Shown piece after piece: positions 37,798 to 60,103 of a DNA stretch of 64,000 bases. Made by a program: the position numbers and the translations under genes. The notes beneath the pieces were generated by a model that made no database searches, was not told where the DNA came from, and saw only the letters and a program-made list of their open reading frames with translations. This DNA comes from Sinorhizobium medicae (lineage in GTDB: Bacteria; Pseudomonadota; Alphaproteobacteria; Rhizobiales; Rhizobiaceae), in contig NZ_VITA01000001.1 in the NCBI RefSeq assembly GCF_007827695.1, positions 62,001 to 126,000 of the forward strand. Direction: 5' to 3'. Within the stretch, counting starts at the first letter, position 1. Every line of letters begins with the position of its first letter.

Positions 37798-37811
37798 TTA
37801 GGAGTTCGAAC

Positions 37812-38597: not shown

Positions 38598-38617
38598 AGG
38601 CAAGCCAAACGCCACCG

Positions 38618-38778: not shown

Positions 38779-38855
38779 GCACCCGTAGCTCAGCTGGATA
38801 GAGTGTTGGATTCCGATTCCAAAGGTCACAGGTTCGAATCCTGTCGGGTGCGCCA
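38779..38855 (+). tRNA. tRNA-Arg (anticodon CCG)
   Basis: A 77-nt cloverleaf: acceptor GCACCCG / CGGGTGC, D-arm GCTCAGCTGGATAGAGT, anticodon stem TTGGA / TCCAA with loop TTCCGAT, T-arm CACAGGTTCGAATCCTGT, and genomic GCCA. The 3' 46 bp are repeated exactly at 60058-60103, so the gene is the integration site of the island. The 5' part is chromosomal, and the 3' part is supplied by the island side, keeping the tRNA intact. Confidence 0.97.
38810..38855 (+). repeat. Left attachment site (tRNA 3' end)
   Basis: Starts ATTCCGATTCC and ends GTGCGCCA; identical over 46 bp to 60058-60103. The base preceding it differs (G versus C), and the sequence after it differs (TATTTC versus CTTCCG), which fixes the limits. 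Confidence 0.95.
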
Positions 38856-38936: not shown

Positions 38937-39305
38937 ATGACCAGACCAGCGTTGATCCGTCAGGCGGATCTGAAGCGGATGGCTGCGGTCGCAAACTCCG
39001 AAGGTGTTACGGTTGAGCTAGAGCTTGAAGGCGCCATTGTCCGAGTAATGCCATTTCAGCCACCGCAAGTATCGACGGAGGAATCTGGGGAAGCGGAACT
39101 CGCGCGATGGATGGCGAACAATGAAGCGAGGAAGCAGAGAGAAGCTAAAGCGGCCGCGGACGTCAGAACGCAGAGGGCCGTGCGTGCGCGGACAGCCGAC
39201 TCGGCCAGAGCTGAAATGTCCGAAGCTGATCGTATCAGGGAGAGGCTTGCTGTGGAGAGTTTCTCAGCAAGGAAGCAACCGCACCGTCGTAAAAAGCCGC
39301 AGTGA
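38937..39305 (+). CDS. Small island-end protein, function unknown
   Basis: 122 residues with GGAGGG 7 nt upstream. Residues 1-45 (ALIRQADLKRMAAVANSEG then a beta pair ELELEGAIVRVMP) resemble short proteins often found next to integrases in rhizobial islands. The rest is a charged, Ala/Glu/Arg-rich helix with a very basic C-terminus (ARKQPHRRKK). It may bind DNA, but no family is recognised. It converges on the next gene. Confidence 0.7.
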   Translation: MTRPALIRQADLKRMAAVANSEGVTVELELEGAIVRVMPFQPPQVSTEESGEAELARWMANNEARKQREAKAAADVRTQRAVRARTADSARAEMSEADRIRERLAVESFSARKQPHRRKKPQ

Positions 39306-39308
39306 ACG

Positions 39309-39800
39309 TCATGCAGCCTCTAGGGCAGCGTTCAAGCGCTCTTCCTGACTGGCGCGAAGCCGGTTCATCCAAGCGTATCCCATCGTCTCCTCGGGCTTTC
39401 TGGTGGGGTTCATGCCCGAGAGAAGCAGGTAAAGCATGCCGGCCAGCGCCTGGCGCTGCGTGACGAAGCCGTAGAGCTGCTGGCATTGCCACATCAGGAA
39501 GCCGAGCGGGATTTTATCCCATGCTTGGAACCACTCCTCTGCGTGATCTTCGATCCAGTCCGAGTTCGCTCGGATCAGATCGGACGCGGCCCAGGCCGAA
39601 TACTCGTTGATGAAGCCCTGATTGCCGGTGGTCTCGGCCATGGTCGCAACGACGAGACGAAGATGGCCTTCGCCGTGCCGTGCCATGATGCGCTCCAGAG
39701 TCCCTAGCGCTCGAGTCTGCCCGGGCATGGGCTGGACATTGGCCGCCACGATCGCGATATCAAACTCGCTGCATATTGCACGAACCTTGGCCAGCATCAT
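39309..39800 (-). CDS. Hypothetical island protein
   Basis: 163 residues (start ATG 39800 or 39797), mixed alpha/beta character. The N-terminal SEFDIAIVAANVQPMPGQTRALG strand-turn and mid-protein RLVVATMAETTGNQGFINEYSAWAASDLI segment look like a conserved folded protein, with several Trp residues in the second half. No family is recognised. It ends 4 bp from the convergent gene. Confidence 0.65.
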   Translation of the reverse strand: MMLAKVRAICSEFDIAIVAANVQPMPGQTRALGTLERIMARHGEGHLRLVVATMAETTGNQGFINEYSAWAASDLIRANSDWIEDHAEEWFQAWDKIPLGFLMWQCQQLYGFVTQRQALAGMLYLLLSGMNPTRKPEETMGYAWMNRLRASQEERLNAALEAA

Positions 39801-40376: not shown

Positions 40377-41075
40377 ATGCCGAACACGACTACCGCAGAA
40401 GCCGCGGATTTCCTTGAGCTTAAGGCCGCCGCGAAGCAGTTCCGAGCGGCGATTACTAAGTACCGACAAGGCAATCCCGGGCAGCCAAAGGGTTTATTGG
40501 ACGGAACGCCAGTACCTATTGAACCCAGCCTTCTCGATGGCGCACGGTTGATCGCCGACAGGCGTGTCGCGTTCGAACACATCCCCTCGCATGCGGTTGC
40601 CTGCGAAGTCGGCGTCCAAACGGGACAATTTTCTAAGGAGCTCTTCGAAAAGTACGACCTCGCCGAGCTACACTTGGTCGATAGTCGCTTGGATAAAATG
40701 ACAGTGGCTTACGAGGATGTCCTGCTTGGTTCTCGCGTGTTTAAGCACGAGGGCATGTCATGGGATGTGCTGGCGACTTTCCCGAATGACAAATTCGACT
40801 GGATCTACATCGATGCTGCCCACGACTACGCCGCAGTCAAAAAGGACCTGGAGCAAGCCTGTCGCGTCGTAAAGCCTGGCGGCTATGTCATCTGCAACGA
40901 CTACACCACCTGGAGTTGGTCAGAGGGTGTAGCCTATGGAGTTGTGGCAGCGGTAAATGAATGTGTGAACGAGCGCAAGTGGCCGGTACGCTATCTCGCG
41001 CTGAACCACATGGGTTACCACGACCTTGCTTTTCAGCGCCCGTCAACCACTCGCCCATCGCATGATGCCGCATAG
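40377..41075 (+). CDS. Class I SAM-dependent methyltransferase
   Basis: 232 residues from ATG 40377, with GGAGC 11 nt upstream (a GTG at 40350 is also open). SAM motifs: VACEVGVQTGQFSKELF as motif I, LHLVDSRLDK as motif II, FDWIYIDAAHDYAAVKKDLEQA as motif IV and VVKPGGYVICNDY as motif V, which is the Methyltransf_24 arrangement. With the FkbM gene 14 bp downstream and two glycosyltransferases beyond, it most likely methylates a sugar in a surface polysaccharide. The acceptor is unknown. Confidence 0.8.
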   Translation: MPNTTTAEAADFLELKAAAKQFRAAITKYRQGNPGQPKGLLDGTPVPIEPSLLDGARLIADRRVAFEHIPSHAVACEVGVQTGQFSKELFEKYDLAELHLVDSRLDKMTVAYEDVLLGSRVFKHEGMSWDVLATFPNDKFDWIYIDAAHDYAAVKKDLEQACRVVKPGGYVICNDYTTWSWSEGVAYGVVAAVNECVNERKWPVRYLALNHMGYHDLAFQRPSTTRPSHDAA

Positions 41076-41089
41076 AGGAACGCTTGTGA

Positions 41090-41635
41090 ATGCCGAAGAA
41101 AATCTACATCGATCTGGGGGCTAACAAGGGTGATACGATCGCTTCATTCCTGGCTGATAACCCCGACCATGAGGCGTGGGGATTTGAGGCAAACCCCTTG
41201 ATGGTTGAACGACTGAACAAACGATTTTCTGGAACACATGTCGCCATTATTGAAGCTGCTGTCTGGACGAGCAATGGCAATCGGCCCATGTTTCTCGGCC
41301 ATCCGCTTTCGAGCACTCTGGTCAAAGGCAAGAAAAAAGTGCCCCAGGCCCCGCATTTTGAAATTGACTACCAAAAGAGTGTCATTGTCCGAACGGTCGA
41401 TTTTTCTGAGTGGTTGCGCAACCTAGTTGGGCCTGGTGACACCGTTACCGTAAAGATGGACATAGAAGGTGCAGAATATCAGGTTCTACAACATTTACTT
41501 GAAACCGGCGCCATCGATCTGATAGACGAACTGCGCTGCGAATTCCATCAGGACCGTTTTCCCATATCAAAACAGCGAGACCAGCGGATCCGAGATGCGG
41601 TCTCAAAACGCACGAAACTTGTCCATTGGAATTGA
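41090..41635 (+). CDS. FkbM-family methyltransferase
   Basis: 181 residues. YIDLGANKGDTIASF near residue 6 is the SAM loop, ILEAAVW-type motif II follows, and VTVKMDIEGAEYQVLQHLL near residue 122 is the FkbM hallmark. It is shorter at the N-terminus than many FkbM proteins. These enzymes O-methylate sugars and other small molecules, so this fits a polysaccharide-modifying cluster. It lies between the other methyltransferase and the fused glycosyltransferase on the same strand. Confidence 0.85.
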   Translation: MPKKIYIDLGANKGDTIASFLADNPDHEAWGFEANPLMVERLNKRFSGTHVAIIEAAVWTSNGNRPMFLGHPLSSTLVKGKKKVPQAPHFEIDYQKSVIVRTVDFSEWLRNLVGPGDTVTVKMDIEGAEYQVLQHLLETGAIDLIDELRCEFHQDRFPISKQRDQRIRDAVSKRTKLVHWN

Positions 41636-41665
41636 ACTAGGAGGGCGCACGGCGCTTTATTTTGA

Positions 41666-43633
41666 GTGATACACGTTATTTTTGCATCCGACGAAAATTA
41701 CGCGCCACATCTTGGCGTCCATATTAGATCAATTGCCGAAACTACCCCTGGGCCGATAGCAGTACATGTTCTTGAGAAGAACATTACCGCCGCTTCCAAG
41801 GAAAAAATTAAGGCATCCGTCCAAAGCTTCGATATTTCCGTTGAATTCATTAAGATCGAATTCGAGCACGAGATCGGGAAGAGAACCCCGGAATACATAA
41901 ACGAAGTGGCCATGTACCGGCTCCTCATGCCGAACTTGCTGCCGAGCGTCGACAAAGCAATTTACATCGATGTTGACGCTGTTACCATAAGTTCTCTCCA
42001 GCCTCTCTGGGATACCGACCTCACGGGCAAACTAATAGCCCTGGTCGAAAGCCCTTGGCGCAAATACGAGACTTACAAGCGCGAGATTGGCCTCTCGGCA
42101 TCTGACCCCTATTTCAACTCCGGCACGATGGTCGTTGATCTGAAAGGCATGCGCGCTCAAAACATCGAAAAAGCTCTCATTGACTGCTTTCTCGATAAGC
42201 GCGAATCCATAGAATTTCCCGATCAGGACGTGATCAACATCGTTCTGCGCGGCAGAATTCTGCCTCTCCACCCGAAATGGAGCATCGTGCGAGCGACATA
42301 TGATTACAACGGAAAAGGCACACTGACCTATGGAAAAGCTGAGGTTGCTGAGGCGAAGGCTTCACCCGCCATCGTGCAGTTCTCAGGAAAGTTAAAGCCG
42401 TGGCACTCCGGCTGCCGTCATCCCCTCGGTTATATGTACAATGCAGTTCGCCAAAGAACGCCGTGGGCTCTCCCGGAAGAGGAGTATGGCAAAGCCGTGC
42501 CTATTCGCCCTCTGGTATCCGTTGTCATGGCGACCAGAAATGGCGAGAAGACGATCGGTGAGGCGGTCCAATCTATACTCGATCAGACTCTGAGCGATCT
42601 GGAGTTCATCATCATTGATGACGGGTCAACGGATAGCACGCCAGCCATGTTGGCAACTTACGCAAAAAATGACAGCCGCGTGCGGATTCTAAGGAACGAG
42701 ACATCCCGCGGTCTCCCGTCAGCACTCAACGTCGGTTTCAATCTCGCCGTTGGTAAGTACATTGCTCGGATGGATGACGACGACATATCAGAGCCTACCC
42801 GTCTGGAGGAGCAAGTCTCCTTCATGAACTCCAACCCAGACATTCACGTCTGCGGCACCAATGTTACGGTTATCAGACCCTTCTGGCATGAGCCGCCGGA
42901 GTACACCCCGGCACCTCCAGAGAGCGACCGAAAGATCAAAGTCGCAATGCTTCACAGGCCGGGTATGATTCATCCGACGGTAATGCTGCGCGGCGATTAT
43001 GTTCGCGCAAAGCAGGTACGATACAATCCTGAATTCCTTAAGGCTCAAGACTATGAGCTCTGGACGCGGCTGGCCTTTGAGCAAAGCGCGCGCTTTCACA
43101 ATCTTCAGAAGCCTCTGCTCAAATATCGCGCGAAGATGGCAGACCCCCGCGAGATTCGCTCGCAGCAAGAAAATTTTGCCTATCGGGTCATTTCTCGGAA
43201 TGCTCGATATCTTGGGTTCACCGACCAGGCGGCGATCGATCTCCATGCGCGATGGGCGGCCAAAAAATTCAATCAGCAGCAACTCGCCAAGCGCTATCGC
43301 GACATTGCTAAGCACGTCAAGTCTGTGCTCTGGGCCAACAAGCAGCATGGTCTTTTCGACCAAGGCGCCTTGGAACAAGAACTGCTTGCTCCCTACAAGA
43401 GTGATTTTAAGGACTTCCATAAAGAGGGGAGCGCTGGAATTGCGCGGTTCGAAGCATTCCCCCTGCGATCATACCTGCGTATCTCCAAGGAACAGCTCGA
43501 GGAATACAAGAGACACGCAGAGAAGAAGGACCGAATGGATAAGCTGCTGTCTTCCCCCGTGATCGGGCTGCTTATGAGACTCGGAATAGCCCTCATTTAT
43601 CCGGAGAAGGTCTTCGGGAAAGTAAAAATCTAA
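41666..43633 (+). CDS. Bifunctional glycosyltransferase: GT8-like plus GT2
   Basis: 655 residues from a GTG at 41666. Residues ~1-265 are a GT8-type domain: MIHVIFASDENYAPHLGVHI, the DxD motif in AIYIDVDAVTIS near 94-105, and the closing FSGKLKPWHSG. Residues ~280-500 are a GT2 domain: VSVVMATRNGEKTIGEAVQS, IIDDGSTDSTP and a DDDD metal site. The last ~150 residues are helical. A GT8-GT2 fusion would add two sugars in sequence to one acceptor. Codon use is more AT-rich than the chromosomal genes. Confidence 0.85.
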   Translation: MIHVIFASDENYAPHLGVHIRSIAETTPGPIAVHVLEKNITAASKEKIKASVQSFDISVEFIKIEFEHEIGKRTPEYINEVAMYRLLMPNLLPSVDKAIYIDVDAVTISSLQPLWDTDLTGKLIALVESPWRKYETYKREIGLSASDPYFNSGTMVVDLKGMRAQNIEKALIDCFLDKRESIEFPDQDVINIVLRGRILPLHPKWSIVRATYDYNGKGTLTYGKAEVAEAKASPAIVQFSGKLKPWHSGCRHPLGYMYNAVRQRTPWALPEEEYGKAVPIRPLVSVVMATRNGEKTIGEAVQSILDQTLSDLEFIIIDDGSTDSTPAMLATYAKNDSRVRILRNETSRGLPSALNVGFNLAVGKYIARMDDDDISEPTRLEEQVSFMNSNPDIHVCGTNVTVIRPFWHEPPEYTPAPPESDRKIKVAMLHRPGMIHPTVMLRGDYVRAKQVRYNPEFLKAQDYELWTRLAFEQSARFHNLQKPLLKYRAKMADPREIRSQQENFAYRVISRNARYLGFTDQAAIDLHARWAAKKFNQQQLAKRYRDIAKHVKSVLWANKQHGLFDQGALEQELLAPYKSDFKDFHKEGSAGIARFEAFPLRSYLRISKEQLEEYKRHAEKKDRMDKLLSSPVIGLLMRLGIALIYPEKVFGKVKI

Positions 43634-43749
43634 GATTCCAACTGCCGCGGCAATGAGGCCCAGAATCGCCTCATTGCCGGCCATATCAGCTGGCGACCAA
43701 CATTGGAACCACGCCTGCGGAGACGTTGCAGTAGGGCTTCCACGAACTA

Positions 43750-45843
43750 CTACAAATCACCACGGAGCAACCATTTGCCCAGTTTTAATGCCGGGTGCCT
43801 AGCATCTAGAAAGAAGGCAGTTGGCGCGTTGTGAAGCTTCCGCTTCAGTTTTTCGTCAATGAACGGAGACAACACGGCGCTATATATCCGATACCGACGA
43901 CGTGATCGAATGCGCTCATCAGAAGCCAGAAGAGTTGATCTCTTTACAGGTGTTTTCGCCTTTTCCCGCTTCCTCCGATCCTCTTCAATTTTCCTTAGTC
44001 CATCAGATCCGACAGCACGGGCAAAGTATTTTCGGCGACTAGGACGTGTCCCCCATAATGGCTGAAGAAGCGAGAGCATCTCCGCAGAGCTGACGCTTGC
44101 ATACTTTTGAAACGACTCATGCAGCTCCGCGTCCTTGTAGTCTTGGGCACCGTCACCCAATTCGTCGGAAATGACTAAATGGCAGGCGACGAGCGCTAAA
44201 CCGAGTCGCTGATCGCCCGTTTCAACGAAGCGGCTCCAAACACTGAAAAATACATCCCACTGACTAATCATCGCATCAGAACGCTTGTCCTCATACGAGC
44301 GGAATCGTTGAGTAAGCTTCAATCCTCTGTGCGCACCAAAATGGAACGCCTGGAAGGGAGAAGGATCAGGGGAGTGATGGAAGAAGATCCTGTCTGGATT
44401 CTCCATGATGACGCGTTTGCCCGGTCGCTTGGGACTTGGGTCGACGAAAAGGCCCTCGGCTGATTGCTCCCACGTGACGCGATTACTGAACGCATGTACC
44501 CCGATGATCTGTTTGCCAGTCATCCAGTCGTTGCAGGCAACGATGAAGTGGTCCAACTGAGGATCCGCATTGAATTGCTTGACGATGTCAGCCAGCACGT
44601 TCTCATCAGCAAAAACCATATCGGCGTCGAACTTGACAAAGATGTGGTACCTTCCGCTGTTGGCCATGATCTCGCCGTATAGAGCCCGATGGGACTCGAC
44701 ACTTCCCAAGTCGCTGAACACCTTGTGTGTCCAACGCTTGTATGTCTGGTGGTCAAGCGACCGTTTCGATGCAGCGAACTCGTTCTCACCGGAATGCAGT
44801 GTCAACACCAGAACTTCCGGCGCTCGCGACCACGGGCGCTCTATTCTTGGAGGAATGCCTTCCAAAGATATAGTTTGCCTTTTAAGTCCAAGCCTCCGAA
44901 TATCGATACCGCCGTCTTGGAACGCCGTGTGTAACTCTTCGATGGTCATTCCACGGATTGCGTCGTCCAGATGAAGGTAGCTTTCTCTCATCAAAAGAAG
45001 ATATCGAAGATATCTAACCGATTGATCGTCAGGACTCTTATCGTTGTCCACGATGGTCGTGTAGTGAACCCGATACGTATCAAGAACGCGCTTCCTGAAC
45101 GCGTTGTGATATTTCCCGTATAAACCACGCTCGATAAAAAACTCTTTTACCAAATCTAACTCTCTGTATTTATCCAGCTTATGTTTGTCGCTTATTTTAT
45201 TTGTAATAGAGTCAGATCTGACTAGATATTTGTAGTATTCACCTCCAATAAAATTAACATTCTTCGCATACGCGAAAATACGCGGCGTCGTTGCTGCGTC
45301 CTGATAGTATATATGATTTGGAAAGTATATTTCGTTCTCAGTGTAGAGAGACGTTCGCCAAAGCTTGTTCCAGAATGCTGGGTTGGCAATTTTGTAGGGA
45401 TCTTGACCATCCGGGATTGGATCCATCGATTTTTGACTTCTGAGGTGCTTTGAAAGTACCTTTCCAGTTTCGTCAACTCTGTCGTATCCGCACACAACGA
45501 CATCGTAATGTTCGCCCATCGTCCCTTCGTAGAGCGCCTCGAGCATCGTTGGCTCGATGTAGTCGTCACTGTCGACGCTTGCGATGTACGGCGCTCTGGC
45601 GTGCAGAATCCCGGTATTTCGCGCACCGCCTAAACCACGATTCTCAACGTGTTGAATGAGTTTGATGCGCTTGTCATCGGAGGCGAGGCGCCTCACAATC
45701 TGTGCACTGTTGTCTGGCGAGCAGTCGTCAATGCAGAGAATCTCAATATCACGAAAGGTCTGCTCCATGATCGAGCGGACGCACTTCTCCACAAACCGCT
45801 CTGTTTTATAGAGAGGCACAATCACAGATATTTTTGGAGTCAT
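43750..45843 (-). CDS. Two-domain glycosyltransferase (GT2 plus second GT-A domain)
   Basis: 697 residues from ATG 45843. Residues ~1-220 are a GT2 domain: ISVIVPLYKTERFVEKCV, ILCIDDCSPDNSA and the DxD region SVDSDDYIEP. From ~340 a second GT-A-like domain follows: VLVLTLHSGENEFAASKRSLDHQTY and the metal site FVKFDADMVF. The C-terminus is basic. It faces the preceding cluster tail to tail, and its 3' half is markedly AT-rich, supporting recent transfer. It probably extends a surface polysaccharide. Confidence 0.82.
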   Translation of the reverse strand: MTPKISVIVPLYKTERFVEKCVRSIMEQTFRDIEILCIDDCSPDNSAQIVRRLASDDKRIKLIQHVENRGLGGARNTGILHARAPYIASVDSDDYIEPTMLEALYEGTMGEHYDVVVCGYDRVDETGKVLSKHLRSQKSMDPIPDGQDPYKIANPAFWNKLWRTSLYTENEIYFPNHIYYQDAATTPRIFAYAKNVNFIGGEYYKYLVRSDSITNKISDKHKLDKYRELDLVKEFFIERGLYGKYHNAFRKRVLDTYRVHYTTIVDNDKSPDDQSVRYLRYLLLMRESYLHLDDAIRGMTIEELHTAFQDGGIDIRRLGLKRQTISLEGIPPRIERPWSRAPEVLVLTLHSGENEFAASKRSLDHQTYKRWTHKVFSDLGSVESHRALYGEIMANSGRYHIFVKFDADMVFADENVLADIVKQFNADPQLDHFIVACNDWMTGKQIIGVHAFSNRVTWEQSAEGLFVDPSPKRPGKRVIMENPDRIFFHHSPDPSPFQAFHFGAHRGLKLTQRFRSYEDKRSDAMISQWDVFFSVWSRFVETGDQRLGLALVACHLVISDELGDGAQDYKDAELHESFQKYASVSSAEMLSLLQPLWGTRPSRRKYFARAVGSDGLRKIEEDRRKREKAKTPVKRSTLLASDERIRSRRRYRIYSAVLSPFIDEKLKRKLHNAPTAFFLDARHPALKLGKWLLRGDL

Positions 45844-46072
45844 TCTCGGGCCGTGCACGTGATGAAAATACGCGCCTTTTGATACAACTCTGATCGTGAG
45901 TCAACTATAGTCGGCTTTCGAGAGGAGCGAGGCGGCCGAGCGACTTCTTCAAATCACAACCCGGTCCGGCGGTCCTGATGCAGCCTTGTTTATCGCCTGC
46001 GCCGTTGTCGGCACTAGCGTAAAGTGCGTGGTAGCGCCCGCCGAATGTTTCAAACAGCAGGCGTTAATTCCG

Positions 46073-48400
46073 CTAAGCTCCCATCACGCACACGCTGATG
46101 TTCTGCACGCCGCCGGTCCGGTTCTCGACGTAGAGACCACCGTCCTGAACACCTAACGTCAGATTGCCATCTGTTCCGGTTGTCCCCGAAAGAGACGTTG
46201 CCACGGCTACGACATTTGTCTCTGTGGCGCCTGTGAACCAGTTTGCTGATACCGAAGGCGTTGGTGCGGCACGAATACCGAAGATGCCCTTTTCCGTGAT
46301 GCCAGCCGTGATGATGGCGGTGCCCGAAAAGATTTGCCGTCCGAGCGTAACTGAGAAAGCCGTATCATCGGCAACGCTGCCACGGAAAAATACGCCAGCA
46401 ACATCACCCCTGTTGTCCCCTCCGACCATCGCCCGGGGATCAATTCGGATGCCGGAATTGCTCCCAGAGAAGAACACCGGAGTCGCGCGCAGCCGCACAT
46501 TGACGGTTGCCCCGATGACGATATCCGACAGCGCGCCAGCCGTCCGAATGAACTCGATACCGTTTCCGGTCGTGCCAGAACTGAACACATTATCAACGGT
46601 GATCTGCTTCAGGTCGCCGCTGCCATTGCATTGGAACGTAATGTCTGCAGTGGCGGTGCCGTTGATGGTGACATCGTCAACCGAAAAGCCAAAAATTCCA
46701 CCAGAGCCGGTGGTTAGGAACTTGACTGCCTGCGGTGCATTGCCTGTCGCACCGCGATAATTGATATCATTGATCTGCCCGCGCGAAACAATGATGCTGT
46801 CGCCATGCACCAAAACTCCTGTCGAGGCGCAGATGTAGCTCACATTATTGATGCGTGGGGCGGATACGTTCCCGCTGGCGCCCTTCCCTACAGCGATCAG
46901 TGACTCTGGGCCGCCTCCAGACGAGTAGTTGGAATACACTCCGCTAATGTTGCAGCCAGAGCCGCGCACGAGAATACCGGCCGAGCCAGCAGTGAACGGG
47001 TACGTCCGCCACACCATGTTAAGTTCGCGGATGGCGCAGTTATTCCCACTCTCGCCCACGATGATCTGGTTGAACGCCTCCTGCGCAAAAACGTTCTCAA
47101 TCACGCAGAAGTCGTGGTCTATGCGGATGAAGGGGCTTGTCCTGGCGGAAACGTTGTCGGGGTGGTTCTCGAACTGGATATCGGAGAAACGGCAGGCTGT
47201 GTGTCCGGTCGCGAACACATCGAAACCGTCACCTTTCACGAGGAAGACAGTTCTGCGATTGCCGCTGCCCATAACCCATCCGCCACGCGTTAGCGTGACA
47301 CCAGTCATCATGGTGTAGTTGCCGATATCGAACTCCACTTTGCTTTCGCGGGAGTTACCCATCGCCGTGAAGGCCTTCTGGATGGCCGGCGCTTGGTCAA
47401 CGGTATTACTTCCAGGGAAAGCACCAAACCACGACGCATGAACCTGCCGTGCGGGTTCGCCGCTGTCGCTGTCGTTCGCGAGGATGAAACTTCCGTCCCC
47501 CCTGAAGATGTGCTGCTTCGGGCTGTCAATGACTTCGGTGATCGTGACCGTTCTGGTTGCCGCAGCGGTGATGTATGCGCCCATTTGAAATTCGATCGGA
47601 ACGTCAATCGTGATGCTGGCATCGACGAGAGTGCTACCTGCACCAAACCTGACGAAACCAAGCGCCGACGCCATTGCGGCAATGGCTGCTGAACTGTCCG
47701 AAGAGGAAGACCCGCCGTACGTGGCGACTGTAGCCAAGGCGGTGGCCGCAGCAGCTTCGGCCCGGTCGGCCGCGTCTTCTGCCGCCGCCTGCGCAGCCTC
47801 GGCCGCCGCCAGAACAGCCGCGCTCGCCTGATCGCTGACCAGCCGGAACGTGCTGCCCGTCACGATACCCATGACAATCATGCCGGCAGTCAGGCCGCCA
47901 ACGGCCACGTCATTCCCTGGGTTCGTCTTGATCGTGAGCGCAGACCCGCCGTTGAAGCTGATCGTTACCGGAGAGGCGGTGTTGTTCTCGAAAATGTTTG
48001 CCCACACAAGCGCGCTGGACGAAACCGGAATGCTGGTCGTCGCCTGAATGGCGTTGGGCGTACCGGCGCCGGCGTCGGATGCGACGATGAAGGAGAAAGG
48101 CAGGTCCGCAACGCGAGTCCAAGAGCCGGCACCCGAGGCGCCGATCTTCATGTACACGCCGTTATTGGCAGAGACGGGATCGCCGATCACCCACGCCGAG
48201 GAATGGGCATCGTGCGCGAGATCAGCATCGAGGGACGCTTTGCTCGTGTAGATCAGCCCACCGTCGGACAGAAAGGCGTTGATGATTCCTTCGTAGCCGG
48301 TCAGGAGCCGGCGAACATCTGACTTTTTGACTTCGTGCGCTCCCGAAGACGGAATGCCATCGGTTTCATAATCGCGGAAGACTTCATTTGCGGTGACCAT
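46073..48400 (-). CDS. Phage tail spike with pectate-lyase-like beta-helix
   Basis: 775 residues. The N-terminal ~60 residues (MVTANEVFRDYETDGIPSSG and AHEVKKSDVRRLL) are the virion-attachment head found on rhizobial tail fibres. An Ala-rich coiled-coil stretch at ~190-225 follows, then from ~230 a right-handed beta-helix of the Pectate_lyase_3 type, with repeated short strands (GILVRGSGCNISGVYSN, ITVDNVFSSGTTGNG) to ~690 and a C-terminal capping domain. Such spikes bind and often cleave host capsule or O-antigen. It lies beside glycosyltransferase genes. Confidence 0.85.
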   Translation of the reverse strand: MVTANEVFRDYETDGIPSSGAHEVKKSDVRRLLTGYEGIINAFLSDGGLIYTSKASLDADLAHDAHSSAWVIGDPVSANNGVYMKIGASGAGSWTRVADLPFSFIVASDAGAGTPNAIQATTSIPVSSSALVWANIFENNTASPVTISFNGGSALTIKTNPGNDVAVGGLTAGMIVMGIVTGSTFRLVSDQASAAVLAAAEAAQAAAEDAADRAEAAAATALATVATYGGSSSSDSSAAIAAMASALGFVRFGAGSTLVDASITIDVPIEFQMGAYITAAATRTVTITEVIDSPKQHIFRGDGSFILANDSDSGEPARQVHASWFGAFPGSNTVDQAPAIQKAFTAMGNSRESKVEFDIGNYTMMTGVTLTRGGWVMGSGNRRTVFLVKGDGFDVFATGHTACRFSDIQFENHPDNVSARTSPFIRIDHDFCVIENVFAQEAFNQIIVGESGNNCAIRELNMVWRTYPFTAGSAGILVRGSGCNISGVYSNYSSGGGPESLIAVGKGASGNVSAPRINNVSYICASTGVLVHGDSIIVSRGQINDINYRGATGNAPQAVKFLTTGSGGIFGFSVDDVTINGTATADITFQCNGSGDLKQITVDNVFSSGTTGNGIEFIRTAGALSDIVIGATVNVRLRATPVFFSGSNSGIRIDPRAMVGGDNRGDVAGVFFRGSVADDTAFSVTLGRQIFSGTAIITAGITEKGIFGIRAAPTPSVSANWFTGATETNVVAVATSLSGTTGTDGNLTLGVQDGGLYVENRTGGVQNISVCVMGA

Positions 48401-48945: not shown

Positions 48946-49233
48946 TTAAGTCTCGACCTCCCCCCCTCCCTTGATGACGGTGAAGCGCGGCGCGCGGCGG
49001 GATTGAAGGGCGTCAGATGGGTAGGTGTACTCTCCCGCCTCGAGTTCGTCCGCTGTGTCTCGGAACACCTGAGCCATTGGAGGCGCATCGGGCATGTTGG
49101 CAAAGCCATAAGCGGCGAGGGTCAGAAGGGTAGCGAAGATCAGATCCTCCTCCATGCCTTCCCCGATCAGACGTTGGCAGACTGCGTCAATCTCCGCGTC
49201 GATGTATCGGGTCTGCTCTTCGTAGCTCATCAC
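48946..49233 (-). CDS. Small phage protein, unknown
   Basis: About 95 residues (MSYEEQTRYIDAEIDAVCQRL start), a helical N-terminal half and a C-terminal strand APRFTVIKGGGEVET. It overlaps the HNH gene end by a few bases, indicating translational coupling. No family is recognised. After it, ~210 bp contain no gene before the next coding sequence, the place where terminase genes would be expected. Confidence 0.6.
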   Translation of the reverse strand: MMSYEEQTRYIDAEIDAVCQRLIGEGMEEDLIFATLLTLAAYGFANMPDAPPMAQVFRDTADELEAGEYTYPSDALQSRRAPRFTVIKGGGEVET

Positions 49234-49595
49234 CATCTACCTGCGCGCTCCTGCCGCTGCTTCTCGCTGTCGTGGTATTCCTTGCTGACCGTCTGGACGT
49301 TGTTGATGTCCCAGAAAAGATCCGGATCACCACGATGTGGGATGATGTGGTCAGCTACTGGGCTGTTGCCTGCCGGGTATCGAGCAATGCACAGCGTGCC
49401 CGTCTTCTGGCAGGTATATAAATCGCGCACCCACACAGCCTTTCGAAGCGCCTTCCAGCGCCGGCTATAATACCAGGCGCGCCAGGGCTGGTTCTGGTCG
49501 CGCTCGCTGTGCCGAGCTTTCTCGTCGCTAGGTGATCTGCCGATCAAAGGCTTGAGCGTGCCGACCAGCGGCTTGATCATCTTGATCTTAGGCAC
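49230..49595 (-). CDS. HNH endonuclease
   Basis: About 121 residues from GTG 49595, chosen because GGGAGGA lies 6 nt upstream. The C-terminal half is a phage HNH nuclease: WYYSRRWKALRKAVWVRDLYTCQ, then VADHIIPHRGDPDLFWDINNVQTVSKEYHDSEK, containing the D-H, N and H residues of the beta-beta-alpha-metal site. The first Cys pair is partly preserved. HNH proteins of this size usually sit next to terminase genes and assist packaging; no terminase is present here. Confidence 0.85.
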   Translation of the reverse strand: MPKIKMIKPLVGTLKPLIGRSPSDEKARHSERDQNQPWRAWYYSRRWKALRKAVWVRDLYTCQKTGTLCIARYPAGNSPVADHIIPHRGDPDLFWDINNVQTVSKEYHDSEKQRQERAGRW

Positions 49596-49887
49596 TCGTT
49601 TCCTCCCAGGCACGCTCCCATTCCGATCGTAAGGACTCGAAGGTTTCCTCGGTGATAGGCAGCGGCAAAGACTGGTATTCGGTGCTGATCAGCTCCTCTC
49701 CTCTATAAGCGGAAAGCATAACCGTCTGGCTGTCCTCACAGAGATAGGCCTCGACATCGATCATCGGCGTTACCGTCATCTGCGTTGTCTGATCATCGGA
49801 AACTATCACGCGAGGACGTTGCCAATCGTCACGACGTGACGCGTACGAAGGGACTACGACGACGAGCGAATACAAGGGGAATTGCAA
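49588..49887 (-). CDS. Small phage protein, unknown
   Basis: 99 residues overlapping the HNH start by 8 bp. Beta-rich middle (VTPMIDVEAYLCEDSQTVMLSAYRGEELIST) and an acidic helical end. No family is recognised; the position suggests a late or accessory phage gene. Confidence 0.6.
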   Translation of the reverse strand: MQFPLYSLVVVVPSYASRRDDWQRPRVIVSDDQTTQMTVTPMIDVEAYLCEDSQTVMLSAYRGEELISTEYQSLPLPITEETFESLRSEWERAWEETSA

Positions 49888-49888
49888 A

Positions 49889-50266
49889 TCAGGCGCCGTT
49901 ACCAGGCTTCGCGTCGCCAGAGGTTTCGTTCACCGCAGGTGTTGCTGAAGTTGGCGCTGCTGCAGGAGCGGATATCACCGGGAGTGTCGATGCAAGCGGT
50001 TGCGCAGGTTGGACCGGCGGAGGAGCAGACTTGGTTTTTGGCCGAGGATAGCCCCGGAAGAGGACCCGCAGGGCCGTGCCAAATGCAGAGGTAACAACAG
50101 AGATGGATATGAAGGTGACGAGGATCAGAATCGATCCGCCGGAGGTCTGTGGGTCGATCCAAGCAATGGCGAGGAGACCCAGCAGGAACCCGGATAATAT
50201 CGGCACACCCCACCGTAGAAAAATCTCAGTCAAAATCGTTGGCTTTCTCTTGAACCTAATCGCCAA
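49889..50266 (-). CDS. Membrane protein with Pro/Ala-rich tail
   Basis: 125 residues: a basic N-terminus (MAIRFKRKPT), two hydrophobic segments at about 18-36 and 44-68, then a Pro/Ala-rich tail. It overlaps the preceding gene end by 11 bp. The two-helix layout and place next to a peptidoglycan-binding protein would fit a lysis or holin-like role, but this is a guess. Confidence 0.55.
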   Translation of the reverse strand: MAIRFKRKPTILTEIFLRWGVPILSGFLLGLLAIAWIDPQTSGGSILILVTFISISVVTSAFGTALRVLFRGYPRPKTKSAPPPVQPAQPLASTLPVISAPAAAPTSATPAVNETSGDAKPGNGA

Positions 50267-51278
50267 TTACCAACAGGAGCTGAGCTCCTCGCCGGTCGAA
50301 CCACTTCTGTGCCTTTAGGCGAAGGGCTTCTACGGACCAACCATTACTCCAAAGCTTCGGATCCCGTTCGATGTCTTCCACCCACGAGAACATTACAGAA
50401 AGGGCGGTCTCGTAGTCTTTAACATCAGAGAGATCTGCAACGAGGACGATTGCATCCGGTTGCCCCTTCTTTCTCGGTGGGGACCACGCGAGGAGGTAAG
50501 GCCCCAAACCATCCAAATCCACCCCCGCGGCGACGGCATCCCGCAGGGCTTTGTCTGCTGCCAGACTGCCATATTGATCGACGGCAATTCCGCAAGTTTG
50601 ACGCTCAGGTGTCTTTGACAGCAGGAGCGCCGTTTCCCTGGATGCTACAGGCCAAACCGTCGCCATCTGCTCGGCAACTGGCTTACCAATCTGATCAAAT
50701 GGCCTGATTGAATTCACGTACGCTTCACAAATCATCACCTGCCGGTCGCGGTCAAAATGGGAGGCACGTGATTTGAAGGCTAAGATTCCATATGCCGCGA
50801 AGTTCGTCGGAGGATAGTCGTCTGGGCCGGCAAACAGACGCGACGCATAAATCTCGCTGCCGGTATACGACGCTGTCGCAGTCCCGCCCGTCGCGCCCGT
50901 CGTACTGGGATGCGAGGTCATTTTTACATCGGTACTAGCCCTGAGGATGAGTGCCTCCGCCTCCTCGTGTGTCAGTATTCCGGTGACTGGCTTTCCTATG
51001 GATCTCTGAAATCGTCGGATTGCCGCAGCACTTTCAGCGCCTAAAACGCCATCAATTTCGCCCCTGTAAAGACCAAGGGTTCGCAATGCGTGCTGGATAG
51101 ATCGGGAAGGATATTTGCCAGGATCCAGCTTGGAACCGTGCTCGAGCAGCTGCTTTGCTGCTCCGCCAACAAAAGCTCCAGCGGCCGGAGAGTGAGATGA
51201 GTTTTGAGCGTACGAATGTCCTGCGGCGGCTACAATAGTCCCCGCGAGAAAGTATATGCAGCAGAGCCCCCTGATCAT
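50256..51278 (-). CDS. Secreted peptidoglycan-binding-domain protein
   Basis: About 340 residues from ATG 51278, which gives a clean signal peptide ending SYA-Q (the frame is open to 51323). Residues ~60-112 are a PG_binding_1 domain: SIQHALRTLGLYRGEIDGVLGAESAAAIRRFQRSIGK. The remaining ~210 residues, with Cys in ICEAYVN and TCGIAVD, match no domain I recognise. It could be a phage lysis enzyme with an unfamiliar catalytic part or a cargo gene acting on the envelope. Confidence 0.7.
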   Translation of the reverse strand: MIRGLCCIYFLAGTIVAAAGHSYAQNSSHSPAAGAFVGGAAKQLLEHGSKLDPGKYPSRSIQHALRTLGLYRGEIDGVLGAESAAAIRRFQRSIGKPVTGILTHEEAEALILRASTDVKMTSHPSTTGATGGTATASYTGSEIYASRLFAGPDDYPPTNFAAYGILAFKSRASHFDRDRQVMICEAYVNSIRPFDQIGKPVAEQMATVWPVASRETALLLSKTPERQTCGIAVDQYGSLAADKALRDAVAAGVDLDGLGPYLLAWSPPRKKGQPDAIVLVADLSDVKDYETALSVMFSWVEDIERDPKLWSNGWSVEALRLKAQKWFDRRGAQLLLVIGD

Positions 51279-51401
51279 CTGCTTCGACCCGCAAATTGGG
51301 AACACAATTTGGAAATATCTCAAAACTTCGTCTGAGTTTCAATCATCGACAGTAATCCAAGCGGGGTCATTTGTCGCCAATAACTGGGGTGTGGCTTACT
51401 T

Positions 51402-51821
51402 TCAGGGCGCAGGCACATCCCGCCCATTGCGACCGGCTTTGACCATCAGCTGCCATGAACTCGCATCACCTGGTTTGTCGCCATCTTCCGTGTTTTTCAG
51501 TGCAACCCAGGCACTCCCGCCATCGGTCACAATCGAGCCTTTGGCGTAAGATGCCGCGCGCTGCCAAACGCCGCAATATTTGATGCCACCGGCCTCCAGG
51601 GCATCGAGCCTTTTTGTGAGATCGGCGATCTGAGCGTCCCGAGCAGCGAGCGCCTGAATTGTCGCTTCCAGAATTCCCGAGCAGTGACGGATCATAAACT
51701 CCATGGATGGCGCCGATTTGAGACGCATCTCGGTAAAGCCCGCCGCCCTGATGGTTGCCTCGGCACGCCGATCAACGGCTTGGAGGAAGGCGGTTTCTGA
51801 GGCCGGCGTTCGCTTCGCCAT
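51402..51821 (-). CDS. Phage protein with C-terminal carbohydrate-binding-like module
   Basis: 139 residues. The N-terminal helix contains a heptad-like stretch (ILEATIQALAARDAQIADLTKRLDALE), followed by YCGVWQRAASYAKGSIVTDGGSAWVALKNTEDGDKPGDASSW, a pattern typical of small chitin/carbohydrate-binding modules on phage fibres, and a KAGRNGRD end. It overlaps the next gene region by 3 bp. It is probably an accessory fibre or head-fibre protein. Confidence 0.7.
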   Translation of the reverse strand: MAKRTPASETAFLQAVDRRAEATIRAAGFTEMRLKSAPSMEFMIRHCSGILEATIQALAARDAQIADLTKRLDALEAGGIKYCGVWQRAASYAKGSIVTDGGSAWVALKNTEDGDKPGDASSWQLMVKAGRNGRDVPAP

Positions 51822-52130: not shown

Positions 52131-52427
52131 TTACCGCGGAGATTTCGTCTTGACGCGAGCGATGACTTCTTCGTCGTCGACGAAGCAGTCGAGGAAGTCG
52201 TTCCAGGCTTCAGGCGAACGGCGCGCATCGGCAAGCATTTGCCTCAGCTCATCGATGCCATCGTCGTTCAGTGCGGTGATTGTCTCATCGTCACCGTGTA
52301 CGACGCTGATGATACTTCCATAGGTCAAATTGTCAGAATTGCTGACGATCGTCTCGAGGAGTTCCCGGTCTTCGCCGAGCATTTCGGCGACATGGTTGAT
52401 GGTGAAGACATGGGTGACGGTGGCCAT
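52131..52427 (-). CDS. Small accessory protein of the IS66 element
   Basis: 98 residues starting [20 protein letters not shown], with the start overlapping the tnpC stop as TGATG. It ends one base inside the left inverted repeat region. Similar small frames are carried by several rhizobial IS66 elements; function unknown. Confidence 0.8.
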   Translation of the reverse strand: MATVTHVFTINHVAEMLGEDRELLETIVSNSDNLTYGSIISVVHGDDETITALNDDGIDELRQMLADARRSPEAWNDFLDCFVDDEEVIARVKTKSPR

Positions 52428-54049
52428 CAGGCGGCCTCGGCGCAGATGATTGCCCCAGGTGCCCAGTTCCACGGGAGCAGTTCGTCGAGCCTATTGATCT
52501 TGTGATCGTGAATGCGGTCGAGCACGTCGGCCAGATAGGCCTGCGGATCGATGCCGTTCATCTTGGCCGTCTCGATGATCGTCATGGCACGCGCCAGGGT
52601 CTCCGCGCCGGTGTCAGCGCCAGCGAAGAGCCAATTTTTTCTTCCGATTCCAATTGGACGCAGGGCCCGTTCGGCGGCGTTGTTATCCATGGCGACGCGA
52701 CCGTCTTCGAGGAATAGGCAGAACGAGTGCCAGCGGCTCAGGCCGTAACGGAAGGCGCTCGCCAGATCGCCCTTGCCCGGAATACGGGTCAGTTGCGCTT
52801 CAGCCCAGACGCGCAAGGCTTCGACCTTTGCTTTGCTGTGCTTCTGACGAGCAGCAAGGCGGATATCGGCAGGCTGGCCTGCAATGTCGCGCTCGATGTC
52901 GTAAAGCGCGCCGATACGGTCGAGAGCCTCGCGCGCGATCTCGGATTTGTTCGAGGTCCAGATATCATGAAAGTCACGTCGCCAATGCGCCCAGCAGGCC
53001 GCTTCCCGGAAGCGGCCTATGCCGTCCGCTCCTGGCTCATAAAGCTTCCCGTAGCCTTTGTAGCCGTCAGCTTGAAGGATGCCGCTTGTCTGCCTGAGGT
53101 GATGGTGGACGTGCTCTTCCTTCCAGTCGGGAGCAAAGTAGTAGACCGATCCCGGTGGAGCCGCGCCCGCCCAGGGACGCTGATCGCGGACATACGTCCA
53201 GATCCTGCCTTTCTTCACGCCTTTCCCAAGCCCTTTGTCTCGCCGAGAGCGATCCAGCACCCGGATTGGGGTGTCGTCGGCATGGAGGAGGTCACTGCCC
53301 ATGATCGCGGTCTCGATCCGCTCGATCAGGGGCTGGAGCACCTGCATGGCGCGGCCGCACCAATCGACCAGCGTGCTGTCCGGAATGTCGGCGCCCATGC
53401 GGGCGAAGATCTCGTTCAGGCGATACAAAGGCAGGTGATCGTCGAACTTCGAGACCAGAATGTAAGCCAGAAGCCCAGCACCTGCCATGCTGCCCGGTAT
53501 CGGACGGCTCGGCGCCGGCAACTGCACCATCTTCTCGCAGCAACGGCAGGACTTCTTCAATCGGGCGACCTCGATGACCTTCATCTGCGCAGCGATCATG
53601 TCGAGGATTTCGCTGGCGTCCTCGCCGACAAGGCGCAATTCACCGCCGCAATCGGGGCAGCAGGTACCCGGATCGAGTTCTTTGCGCTCGCGAGCTGCCT
53701 TTTCCGATACCCGCGGACGGCGGCGCATGGTCTTCTCGGGCGTGCTTGCCACAGGCGCGGCAGGCACTGCCGCATCGACCTCATCGAGCGGCTTGGTGCT
53801 GTTTTCCGCTGCGGCGATTAAAAGATCCTCCAGCGCCAGTTCCAGCTGCTGGATTTCCCGCTCGATCTTTTCCGAGGACTTGCCGAAGACCTGTTTCTTC
53901 AGCTTGGCGATGCGCAGTCGCAGTTCCCCGATCAATTGGTCGTGCGCCTGCAACGTCGCCGACATCTTCGCGTTGTCCGCCTGCAAGGCGGCGATCATCG
54001 CCTTCAGGAAGGCCGGATCGTCGGGAAGATTTTGGCTCGCGTTCGACAT
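52427..54049 (-). CDS. tnpC: IS66 transposase TnpC
   Basis: 540 residues from ATG 54049. An N-terminal leucine-zipper-like helix ([35 protein letters not shown]) is followed by a zinc-finger segment ([21 protein letters not shown]) and the DDE catalytic core, including [10 protein letters not shown] and [19 protein letters not shown]. This is the full-length IS66 transposase; no disruption is visible. Confidence 0.95.
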
Positions 54050-54112
54050 GATCCTGACTACCATAGGTCAGGACGAGTATCCATAAAAACAAGCAGATTC
54101 AGTGAGATAAAA

Positions 54113-54460
54113 TCAACCGACACGCGCCGGCGGAGCGCCCCAGTTGGGCCGTCGCCAATCAATCCCTTCCCAAAGCATGGCCAGTTGCGCCGTTGTCAGC
54201 CGGGCCGTTCCATCGGCTGCTGAAGGCCATGGAAAACGCCCCCTCTGCAAAATTTTATAGTACAGGCAGAAGCCCTGGCCATCAAAATACAGGAGTTTCA
54301 AACGATCGCCCCGTCGTCCTCGAAACGCGAAGACTGCACCTCCCGTCGGCTTCTGGCGCAGCACATCCTGCGCAAGCGCAGCCAAACCTTCCACCCCTTT
54401 GCGCATGTCCGTGGCTCCGCAGGCGAGATACACTCGAACACCGGTTCCTGGTCCAATCAT
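54113..54460 (-). CDS. tnpB: IS66 protein TnpB
   Basis: 115 residues with the IS66 Orf2 pattern VYLACGATDMRKGVEGLAAL, VFAFRGRRGDRLKLLYFDGQGFCLYYK and RLTTAQLAMLWEGIDW. It overlaps tnpA by 4 bp and is required together with TnpA and TnpC for IS66 transposition. Confidence 0.95.
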   Translation of the reverse strand: MIGPGTGVRVYLACGATDMRKGVEGLAALAQDVLRQKPTGGAVFAFRGRRGDRLKLLYFDGQGFCLYYKILQRGRFPWPSAADGTARLTTAQLAMLWEGIDWRRPNWGAPPARVG

Positions 54461-54831
54461 GCTGCTTCAACCGCCCGGATGAGCCGAGTGAGGACGGCGG
54501 CATCGACGCCACTGTCGAAGCGAAGACTGCGCCCATCGTTCAACCGCAACTCGATCATTGCAGGCCCGCGCGCAACCTCCTCACGCACCAGCGGGGCGCC
54601 ATGCAGGGCGGCCGTGTCTACGGGAACGAAGACCGTATCTGCCGTGGACGGCAACAAACCCTTCTTCTTCAGCTCATGCCGCCAGGCGTAAATCTGCTGC
54701 CGGCTCACATCGTGCCGATGGGCAACCTCAGTGACCGTCGCACCGTCGAGCCCAACCGACATGACAATGTCGAGCTTCTGCGCGTCACCCCAACGCCGCC
54801 GCCGTTCCTGACCAAGAATTTCGACACGCAT
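54457..54831 (-). CDS. tnpA: IS66 protein TnpA
   Basis: 124 residues with a helix-turn-helix of the IS3/IS66 Orf1 type (VTEVAHRHDVSRQQIYAWRHELKKKG, about 34-60) and a C-terminal MIELRLNDGRSLRFDS strand pair. It is the first gene of the IS operon; a long palindrome lies just upstream. Confidence 0.94.
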   Translation of the reverse strand: MRVEILGQERRRRWGDAQKLDIVMSVGLDGATVTEVAHRHDVSRQQIYAWRHELKKKGLLPSTADTVFVPVDTAALHGAPLVREEVARGPAMIELRLNDGRSLRFDSGVDAAVLTRLIRAVEAA

Positions 54832-55696: not shown

Positions 55697-55866
55697 GCGA
55701 CGTTCCTTTCACGCTGGAAGGCCGCCGGCGCTATGACCTTGGCCGGCTCGGGATAGCGAGGGTCGATGTCGGGCATGGTCCGAACGATGATAGGCGTCAG
55801 GTCGATGATCTGCGCTGTAGGACGAGTCTCTGCCCAGGCAAAGAGGTCGAGTTGATGCGTCTTCAT
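55693..55866 (-). CDS. 57-residue island protein, unknown
   Basis: Reads MKTHQLDLFAWAETRPTAQI to a TGA at 55693-55695. Both ends are coupled by ATGA overlaps, with the replication-like gene upstream and the 68-residue gene downstream, which is strong evidence that it is translated despite its size. The N-terminal QLDLFAWAE pattern recurs in small phage proteins; function unknown. Confidence 0.7.
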   Translation of the reverse strand: MKTHQLDLFAWAETRPTAQIIDLTPIIVRTMPDIDPRYPEPAKVIAPAAFQRERNVA

Positions 55867-56678: not shown

Positions 56679-56872
56679 CCGAAGACCTTTCTGCACAGCC
56701 GGAACTTCTCGGCCATGGCTGCGGCTTCACAGGCCTGCAGACACGTCAGTCCGAACCGTTGCTTCAACGCCGGCACGATCGGCCGCGGTGGGGGATTCTG
56801 GTCGGCAAGCCACATGGCAGCCTGCTCGACCTGGGCGGAATGTTCATGCTCGGGAGGTGTAAGGGGGCTCAT
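56675..56872 (-). CDS. Small island protein, unknown
   Basis: 65 residues; VPALKQRFGLTCLQACEAAAMAEKF has the look of a short helix-turn-helix. Coupled by ATGA to both neighbours. Similar small frames precede replication genes in rhizobial phages; function unknown. Confidence 0.65.
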   Translation of the reverse strand: MSPLTPPEHEHSAQVEQAAMWLADQNPPPRPIVPALKQRFGLTCLQACEAAAMAEKFRLCRKVFG

Positions 56873-58108: not shown

Positions 58109-58126
58109 ATATCGCACACGTGATAT
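58109..58126. promoter_or_regulatory. Second, imperfect copy of the operator
   Basis: ATATCGCAC ACGTGATAT shares its left half with the palindrome at 58052-58069 and has a CACGTG core shifted by one base. It lies 20 bp upstream of the Arc-like start. Confidence 0.6.
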
Positions 58127-58146
58127 TATTTGGGGAAAACCGTCAG

Positions 58147-59888: not shown

Positions 59889-59907
59889 TCCGGACACCTC
59901 ACACGCT

Positions 59908-59940
59908 ACAGGAAGCACATAGGAAGCAGCAGGAAGCAAA
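59908..59940 (+). repeat. Probable integrase arm-type repeats, right end
   Basis: Three GGAAGCA units at 59911, 59922 and 59931 in one orientation, with a fourth at 60030-60036. The first two match the left-end pair at 38902-38922 in 20 of 21 bases. Confidence 0.65.
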
Positions 59941-60057: not shown

Positions 60058-60103
60058 ATTCCGATTCCAAAGGTCACAGGTTCGAATCCTGTCGGGTGCG
60101 CCA
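60058..60103 (+). repeat. Right attachment site (duplicate tRNA-Arg 3' end)
   Basis: Exact 46-bp copy of 38810-38855, from inside the anticodon stem to the genomic CCA. It lacks the tRNA 5' half, so it is not a functional tRNA. Confidence 0.95.

Follow-up and report, generated by a model that had tools for sequence, protein, structure and literature searches.

Glycan-Modifying Genes beside Tailspikes in Described Phages

In the P22-like phages of Salmonella, tailspikes combine conserved anchors with exchangeable tips, and in phage epsilon34 the gtrABC genes (genes 20-22) adjoin the tailspike gene 19; gtrABC clusters are found in prophages ranging from largely intact to highly degraded (accessible portion of PMC2629481). 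A comparable arrangement is described here for a 64,000-nucleotide stretch of DNA from Sinorhizobium medicae, a nitrogen-fixing bacterium of plant roots (contig NZ_VITA01000001.1, positions 62,001 to 126,000, hereafter the window), in which an element of 21.3 kb, spanning 38810-60103, carries a phage tail spike beside a cassette of four putative glycosyltransferase and methyltransferase genes. The element is, with high probability, a decayed prophage that retains a receptor-modifying lysogenic-conversion cassette, in the manner of gtrABC beside the epsilon34 tailspike. The likeness lies in the placement of glycan-modifying genes next to a tailspike whose anchor is conserved and whose beta-helix tip is exchangeable (accessible portion of PMC2629481), whereas the cassette of the window differs from gtrABC of the P22-like phages in encoding GT8, GT2, FkbM and Methyltransf_24 proteins, which are known here from sequence alone. 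No GtrA-family match was seen with Pfam among the four cassette proteins, so that the gtrABC set (GtrA, GtrB and a multi-transmembrane GtrC) is not what the cassette encodes and its chemistry would differ. The original prediction, which knew of no described system with this make-up, overlooked the P22-like prophages, for which O-antigen-modifying genes beside a tailspike are described in the same portion of PMC2629481.

Closer to the host, the 16-3 group (16-3, AP-16-3, phiLM21 and NV1.1.1) shares with the element the spike anchor domain followed by a variable tip, and several members of the group carry a methyltransferase gene after the spike, which is of the FkbM type in phiLM21, phi3LM21 and AP-16-3. 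The FkbM gene of AP-16-3 was reported to resemble one of S. fredii (available part of PMC10460002), and an FkbM gene is also tabulated for phiLM21-like prophages (available part of PMC12429752). Unlike the 16-3 group, the element is devoid of head and tail genes except for the spike, and it carries a four-gene cassette.

Prophages of Acinetobacter baumannii carry both a Wzy polymerase and a tailspike depolymerase, and the logic proposed for them is alike, namely that the changed capsule shields the lysogen from relatives that use the same depolymerase (excerpted text of PMC13228068); the same protection from relatives is proposed for Kapi1 (excerpted text of PMC8787464). The A. baumannii case differs in that the modifying gene is a Wzy polymerase, and it is likened here by the description in the excerpt, not by sequence comparison. 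In literature searches aimed at such an arrangement in rhizobia or at remnants that keep a spike, no listed title or abstract described it for 16-3-like phages, within the partial view of the literature that such listings afford.

An Integrated Element with a Spike and a Glycan Cassette

The features that define the element are as follows:

38779..38855, plus strand: tRNA-Arg (CCG), the integration site (ARAGORN)
38810..38855, plus strand: left attachment site (attL), the 46-bp 3' end of tRNA-Arg, a perfect direct repeat with 60058-60103
40377-41075, plus strand (a GTG start at 40350 also possible): S-adenosylmethionine (SAM) methyltransferase, Methyltransf_24 (Pfam E 7.6e-12)
41090-41635, plus strand: FkbM-type methyltransferase (Pfam E 8.3e-11)
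41666-43633, plus strand: GT8-GT2 fusion glycosyltransferase (Pfam E 1.2e-43 and 1.8e-35)
43750-45858, minus strand: GT2 glycosyltransferase with a second part that has no family assigned (Pfam E 3.7e-36)
46073-48400, minus strand: tail spike, anchor at residues ~1-197 and variable tip at ~228-775 (phrog_38233, tail fiber)
58623..59939, minus strand: tyrosine integrase (PHROGs; 98% identical in S. meliloti USDA1157, 90% in G309)
60058..60103, plus strand: right attachment site (attR), the other copy of the repeat, with flanks continuous in empty-site strains

The element lies on a pSymB-type replicon of S. medicae, and it is bounded by a perfect 46-bp direct repeat formed from the 3' end of tRNA-Arg(CCG). 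The integrase gene adjoins attR, and the same attachment (att) core also adjoins related integrases in other records. The left flank (35000-38790) was matched at no less than 99% in 12 S. medicae records. One of them, plasmid pSU277_1 of strain SU277, contains the same element (37,041 bases matched with 8 mismatches), while the site is empty in all 11 of the other megaplasmid records. Nine of these empty sites have the exact att core with a left flank of 300/300 and a right flank of 298-300/300 bases, and in the other two the core matches at 97.9% over 47 bp with flanks of 99.3-100%. No element DNA beyond the att core was found in the stretches compared from the 11 records. An integrase beside att sequences duplicated at both ends is characteristic of a prophage, and the empty sites of the relatives agree with it. 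SU277 and WSM419, with the element and with an empty site, respectively, form a natural strain pair that permits a direct comparison of phage sensitivity and of surface glycans.

The original prediction had taken 40377-48400 as the unit; its genes and coordinates stand, although the natural unit is the larger att-bounded element. Pfam confirmed the two methyltransferases, the GT8-GT2 fusion and the GT2 protein, whose C-terminal half has no Pfam match. Three of the four genes do face the spike as predicted, the Methyltransf_24, FkbM and GT8-GT2 genes converging on it; the GT2 gene sits directly behind the spike and shares its strand. The predicted AT-richness of the cassette was likewise borne out, with guanine plus cytosine (GC) fractions of 0.558, 0.493, 0.519 and 0.495 for the four genes in order and 0.585 for the spike; the 1-kb windows across 41001-45500 reach 0.464-0.538, those up to 40500 have at least 0.569, and the lowest one to the right of 48000 has 0.547.

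The N-terminal part of the spike places it in a tail-fiber family (phrog_38233, E 1.8e-91, residues 2-227), and its anchor is 75% identical to p023 of phage 16-3 over residues 2-186. The tip is 87-88% identical to those of the resident prophage C9, located in the same genome, and of the spike locus L107. The beta-helix that had been assigned to the spike is likely, as judged from a structure model of low confidence (mean predicted local distance difference test score, pLDDT, 55.6; 64-87 for the 10-residue blocks of 421-630), and it stays unproven. The PDB matches of the model were beta-helix proteins, only one of which, an adhesin, had E below 0.001; the tailspikes of HK620, Sf6 and Dettilon ranked fourth to sixth (E 0.0055-0.0061, TM-score 0.25-0.27).

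The Element Lacks Virion Genes except the Spike

The absence of terminase, portal, capsid and tail-tube genes, noticed at the outset, was upheld from two sides. Open reading frames (ORFs) of at least 80 residues from prophage C9, phage 16-3, phiLM21 and the loci L107, L043 and L030 were compared with the element, and no virion gene except the spike was found; besides the spike, those ORFs match only the glycan genes. PHROGs searches with 20 proteins of the region gave head-type labels that were only secondary or weak, for instance on a transposase ORF (E 0.0027) and on the protein at 50256-51323, which matches a weak "endolysin" family that PHROGs files under head. The label "terminase small subunit" of the HNH protein was rejected in favor of a better match to HNH endonucleases, and the "portal" label of 51402-51821 covers a C-terminal domain and was not accepted as a virion gene. 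A complete set of head, packaging and tail genes is therefore not present, and the element was filed as a defective prophage because the spike is the only virion gene recognised. For the same reason it does not resemble a tailocin, in which tail-tube and baseplate genes would occur without a head.

The Slot beside the Spike in Phage Relatives

The original prediction presented the pairing of spike and cassette as special to an island without virion genes. Homologous cassette genes, however, adjoin homologous spikes in virion-bearing phage records. In G041 (43.4 kb, of which 40 kb were read), portal, tape-measure, p018, p020, h and spike genes are followed by three cassette homologues on the opposite strand, namely FkbM (54% identical), GT8-GT2 (39%) and Methyltransf_24 (55%). 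Their order is Methyltransf_24, GT8-GT2 and FkbM, as compared with Methyltransf_24, FkbM and GT8-GT2 in the window, and the GT8-GT2 protein of the window is 39% identical over 653 residues to the G041/L030 protein. In G045 (42.2 kb, 40 kb read), the genes from terminase to h and the spike are followed by FkbM (47%) and a GT2 protein (75%) on the spike strand; the GT2 protein of the window is 75% identical over 709-714 residues to the post-spike proteins of L034 and L097/G045. Both records show the order HNH, portal, tape measure, h, spike and cassette, and the HNH gene of the window is only 0.83 kb from the spike, a short distance which fits the loss of the genes that would have lain between. 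In prophage C9, a GT2/capsule-type protein and a TylF-type methyltransferase converge on the spike. By eye, C9 is situated about 20 kb from an exopolysaccharide-like gene run (contig C9, 131-139 kb and 160-185 kb).

Among described phages, 16 records with a related spike were matched (two phages being recorded twice), and seven phages were examined. A methyltransferase or glycosyltransferase gene lies behind the spike in five of the seven (phiLM21, phi3LM21, AP-16-3, NV1.1.1 and Rivra), with one or more genes intervening in Rivra and NV1.1.1. None is annotated behind the spike in RHph_X2_25, and the immX gene beside the spike of 16-3, which is labelled "acetyltransferase", was left out of the count.

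A wider survey started from 101 spike loci besides those of the window and C9, 96 of which had at least 1.5 kb downstream, and 77 remained after the removal of 19 redundant ones. The ORFs were mechanical longest-frame calls, spurious ones included. A near set comprised 151 ORFs of at least 170 residues starting within 2.6 kb of the spike, and 148 of them were scanned (those of L038, 1209 residues, L099, 950 residues, and L103, 171 residues, were dropped for a size limit); 126 ORFs starting 4-9 kb from the spike served as the far control. The near ORFs of the 77 loci matched FkbM (9), Methyltransf_25 (7), GT2 (6), Capsule_synth (6), Acyl_transf_3 (6) and GT8 (2), where a single protein can match several families, and they also hold lysis genes (Phage_lysozyme, 12). 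The far ORFs gave FkbM 2, GT2 2 and Methyltransf_25 2, and Capsule_synth and Acyl_transf_3 were absent among the best 25 of their 83 families.

At 45 of the 68 loci with a detected h gene, a convergent ORF of at least 170 residues was present within 2.6 kb. Among 20 of these 45 first convergent ORFs taken at random, nine encoded glycan-active enzymes, that is, two Acyl_transf_3, two heparinase-like, two GT2/capsule, two FkbM (near relatives) and one GT1 protein; one of the other 11 was GDSL lipase-like. No h was detected upstream at nine spike loci (L011 with only 3.5 kb upstream), and from eight of these (all but L073), 10 ORFs yielded an acyltransferase (L101), an integrase (L011) and otherwise no Pfam match. 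Glycan genes thus recur at one position in virion-bearing relatives, as would be expected of a lysogenic-conversion module, and the pairing of a spike with predicted glycan genes is common in the 16-3-type phage group. These comparisons document, for 16-3-like rhizobial phages, a spike-neighbour slot for surface-glycan genes as in Salmonella phages.

A Probable Decayed Prophage with a Putative Lysogenic-Conversion Cassette

The course of events that best accommodates these results begins with a temperate phage bearing a 16-3-group spike, the integration of which at the 3' end of tRNA-Arg(CCG) is evident from the att repeats and the empty sites. The prophage would then have been grounded by the loss of its head and tail genes, as gene content and relatives suggest, and the spike would be a leftover of the virion. 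The cassette occupies the position used in fuller relatives and would be a lysogenic-conversion module. In the lysogen, sugars would be added to a surface polysaccharide by the glycosyltransferases and methylated by the methyltransferases, and the altered polysaccharide may block phages that use it as a receptor. Glycan-modifying enzymes are found again and again in the slot next to spikes of this family, and for this reason we infer that the cassette modifies the surface glycan; the earlier proposal of serotype conversion or superinfection exclusion gains support to the same conditional extent. The unusual make-up of the element would result from prophage decay together with a common accessory-gene slot beside the spike, and such decay is the preferred explanation of a "spike without a virus".

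Several points weigh against this interpretation. The four cassette genes were not met together in any relative, so that their exact combination is a mosaic. Queries from 16-3 and C9 failed to reveal a capsid gene in G041, and the gene order is anchored by weak HNH matches (34-38%). The deletion junction itself escaped detection: the homology to nine relatives ends no more than about 40 bp before the start codon of the spike. Glycan genes do not have the slot to themselves, given that 23 of the 68 loci with h lack a convergent ORF of the size set above and that the random 20 included three AAA_21 ATPases and seven proteins with no Pfam match. A pattern search of IMG/VR found no relatives of the endolysin-like and replication proteins of the element (nor of the GT8-GT2 and 39312-39800 proteins), although such a search misses distant relatives, since the GT8-GT2 homologue L030 is present in that collection; in the phage collection, the endolysin-like protein had no relatives and the replication protein only partial matches below 60%. 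Finally, the step from the cassette to a modified surface glycan and phage exclusion is one that we infer.

Partial Co-inheritance of Spike Tip and Neighbouring Gene

The cassette had been proposed to come with a matching spike. In an explanation built on such a match, tip and cassette would constitute a functional unit that recognises and modifies the receptor and is inherited and swapped jointly. A first view that tip and cassette are largely uncoupled was dropped, because the redundancy filter, defined on downstream DNA, hid shared cassettes; the filter was left out of the recount, which revealed partial coupling. It covered 97 loci, 73 of them with a convergent ORF of at least 150 residues, and pairs were comparable when their upstream DNA differed (non-clonal) and their tips were no less than 75% identical, a convergent protein being counted as shared at 70% identity or above. 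Pairs with similar tips shared the convergent protein in 12 of 23 cases, as against 7 of 2577 for unlike tips, and even among similar tips on differing anchors (below 85%) it was shared in 6 of 14. L096 and L097 have tips 99% and convergent neighbours 100% identical on anchors of 79% with different h types, and tip and neighbour also occur together on different anchors in L068 with L069/L094 and in L062/L089, as if the right arm had been exchanged by crossover inside the spike gene in these three cases.

The same pairs, however, share genes 4-9 kb away in 9 of 18 cases and codirectional neighbours in 10 of 19; the distal genes being shared about as often, exchange of the whole right arm through a crossover inside the spike gene suffices. 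Moreover, 10 of the 23 pairs share nothing, for example the window with C9 and L107 (tips 88%), L017 with L072 (99%) and L067 with L054/L055/L060 (92-93%), and seven non-clonal pairs have the same neighbour and unlike tips. C9 and L107, with tips 99% identical, have glycosyltransferases only 27% identical, and the relatives of the window cassette in L030 and L034 carry different tips. The pairs are not independent, and by tip cluster (12 comparable) six share, two are mixed and four do not. Not every shared convergent gene is a glycan gene. Across the group, spike tip and neighbouring gene are therefore inherited in part as a pair, to an extent that linkage alone would produce, and the matching spike of the original prediction is retained only to this degree, the tip and cassette of the window not being paired in its two closest tip relatives. 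A functional unit of recognition and modification is accordingly an improbable explanation, and the partial co-inheritance offers a testable point on how lysogens exclude competitors.

Integrase Relatives and Other Shortened Elements

The integrase of the element was found in one of 33 genomes of the genus at E 1e-100 (its own genome only) and in four of 394 genomes of the family at E 1e-150, its own included, where at most four candidates per genome were scored among the matches listed. G309, with an integrase 90% identical and the same att core, has 16-3-like terminase, portal, protease and capsid genes up to the contig end. In G238, the att copies are 44.3 kb apart, and the virion proteins of 16-3 and C9 that were tested were not found there. 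On psymB of S. meliloti USDA1157 (L183, 7480-22922), a shortened prophage with an integrase 98% and an Arc protein 89% identical keeps p020, h and spike genes and a partial p018 gene; head and tape-measure genes and a second att copy were not found within 43 kb. Its spike is frameshifted, and an open alpha-2,8-polysialyltransferase-type gene (A-2_8-polyST) converges on it. In G266, which belongs to another genus, 14 kb lie between two copies of the att of the element (L166/L167, 1452-15374), containing a frameshifted integrase, a transposase recognised by eye, a spike of 719 residues and two convergent proteins with methyltransferase matches below the Pfam cut-offs; no tested virion protein except the spike was found in the stretch. 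A further stretch of G266 extends from there to a third att copy at tRNA-Arg (up to 36579), and the two stretches together look like two tandem elements. Of the markers of the 16-3-type lineage, the anchor is present in the element of the window and h and the head genes are absent, while the relatives G309 (head) and USDA1157 (h) have some of them.

These elements bear on an extension of the decayed-prophage interpretation, in which the host keeps a useful cassette and shortened prophages consequently recur at tRNA-Arg as selected surface-modification islands. The USDA1157 and G266 elements, which were found via the integrase and not via the spike, both still have a spike on which a glycan- or methyltransferase-like gene converges, and in USDA1157 the A-2_8-polyST gene is open while the spike is frameshifted. 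The comparison nevertheless comprises three elements only, the G266 matches are below the cut-offs, the frameshift can be a sequencing error, the open frames may reflect recent losses, and one glycan-type enzyme was met among the eight scanned h-less spike loci. Such selection is a rather unlikely addition. Still more doubtful is the combined proposal that a rhizobial tip and its cassette form a swappable unit that recognises and then alters the receptor and is kept by hosts as a phage-exclusion island (window, USDA1157 and G266); if true, recombination within the spike gene would carry such units from one phage backbone to another, and the units would outlast the virion genes.

The Spike as a Possible Donated or Satellite Component

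It had also been suggested that the spike is donated to another phage, and the element might accordingly lend it to particles of a phage in the same cell or hijack a helper. Virion genes are present in the resident prophage C9, whose spike is of the same family and has an 87% identical tip, and the spike, integrase and cassette frames of the element are open despite the missing virion genes. The ratio of nonsynonymous to synonymous substitution rates (dN/dS) of the tip against C9 is 0.15, the same as for C9 against L043, with dS nearly saturated; the tip is thus without visible relaxation, for which recent loss accounts as well as continued use. The window anchor, however, is only 62% identical to that of C9, and a 16-3-type h is present at every one of the 18 loci that have a detectable h and whose anchor is no less than 76% identical to that of the window, although this cut-off was set post hoc, loci at 75.4% (L014 and L052) have a C9-type h, and the 18 include near-duplicates. 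Within the genome itself, the 16-3 h is matched best by that of C9 (32%), followed by two weaker partial matches. G309 combines the same integrase and att core with phage head genes, and no packaging-hijack gene was recognised among the PHROGs-scanned proteins of the region. Anchor and tail-tip type thus disfavor donation, and a donor or satellite role is very improbable in comparison with a decayed prophage.

Other Genes of the Element and Minor Observations

The remaining features of the element are as follows:

38937..39305, plus strand: small gene, function undefined (homologue 58% over 64 residues in the G266 element; no Pfam match)
39309..39800, minus strand: phage protein, function undefined (phrog_22699, E 3.8e-24)
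49230..49613, minus strand: HNH endonuclease (phrog_589)
50256..51323, minus strand: peptidoglycan-binding, endolysin-like protein (PG_binding_1; PHROGs endolysin, weak)
51402..51821, minus strand: small protein whose C-terminal domain also occurs in portal and fibre proteins of phages (PHROGs)
52427..54831, minus strand: insertion with a transposase and two accessory ORFs (PHROGs transposases), which we take to be of IS66 type
55863..56696, minus strand: O-like phage replication initiation protein (PHROGs)
58120..58626, plus strand: Arc-like regulator (PHROGs; 89% identical in S. meliloti USDA1157)

With the two glycosyltransferases as queries, tblastn against the phage collection gave matches in 103 and 111 records; no match extended over 80% of the query, identities were all below 60%, and these matches were not used. 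AAA_21-type ATPases are the first convergent ORF in L051, L070 and L082, where they are possibly phage-defence genes. Upstream of the spike in L007, L010, L030-L032, L034, L043, L051 and L097, an inverted repeat followed by a T-rich run was seen by eye; an intrinsic-terminator-like repeat of this kind between h and spike may mean that the spike is transcribed separately. Just past attR, at 60314-61979 of the window, a HipA-like protein and a helix-turn-helix (HTH) regulator are encoded, and both are also annotated beside the empty site of S. medicae ml29.

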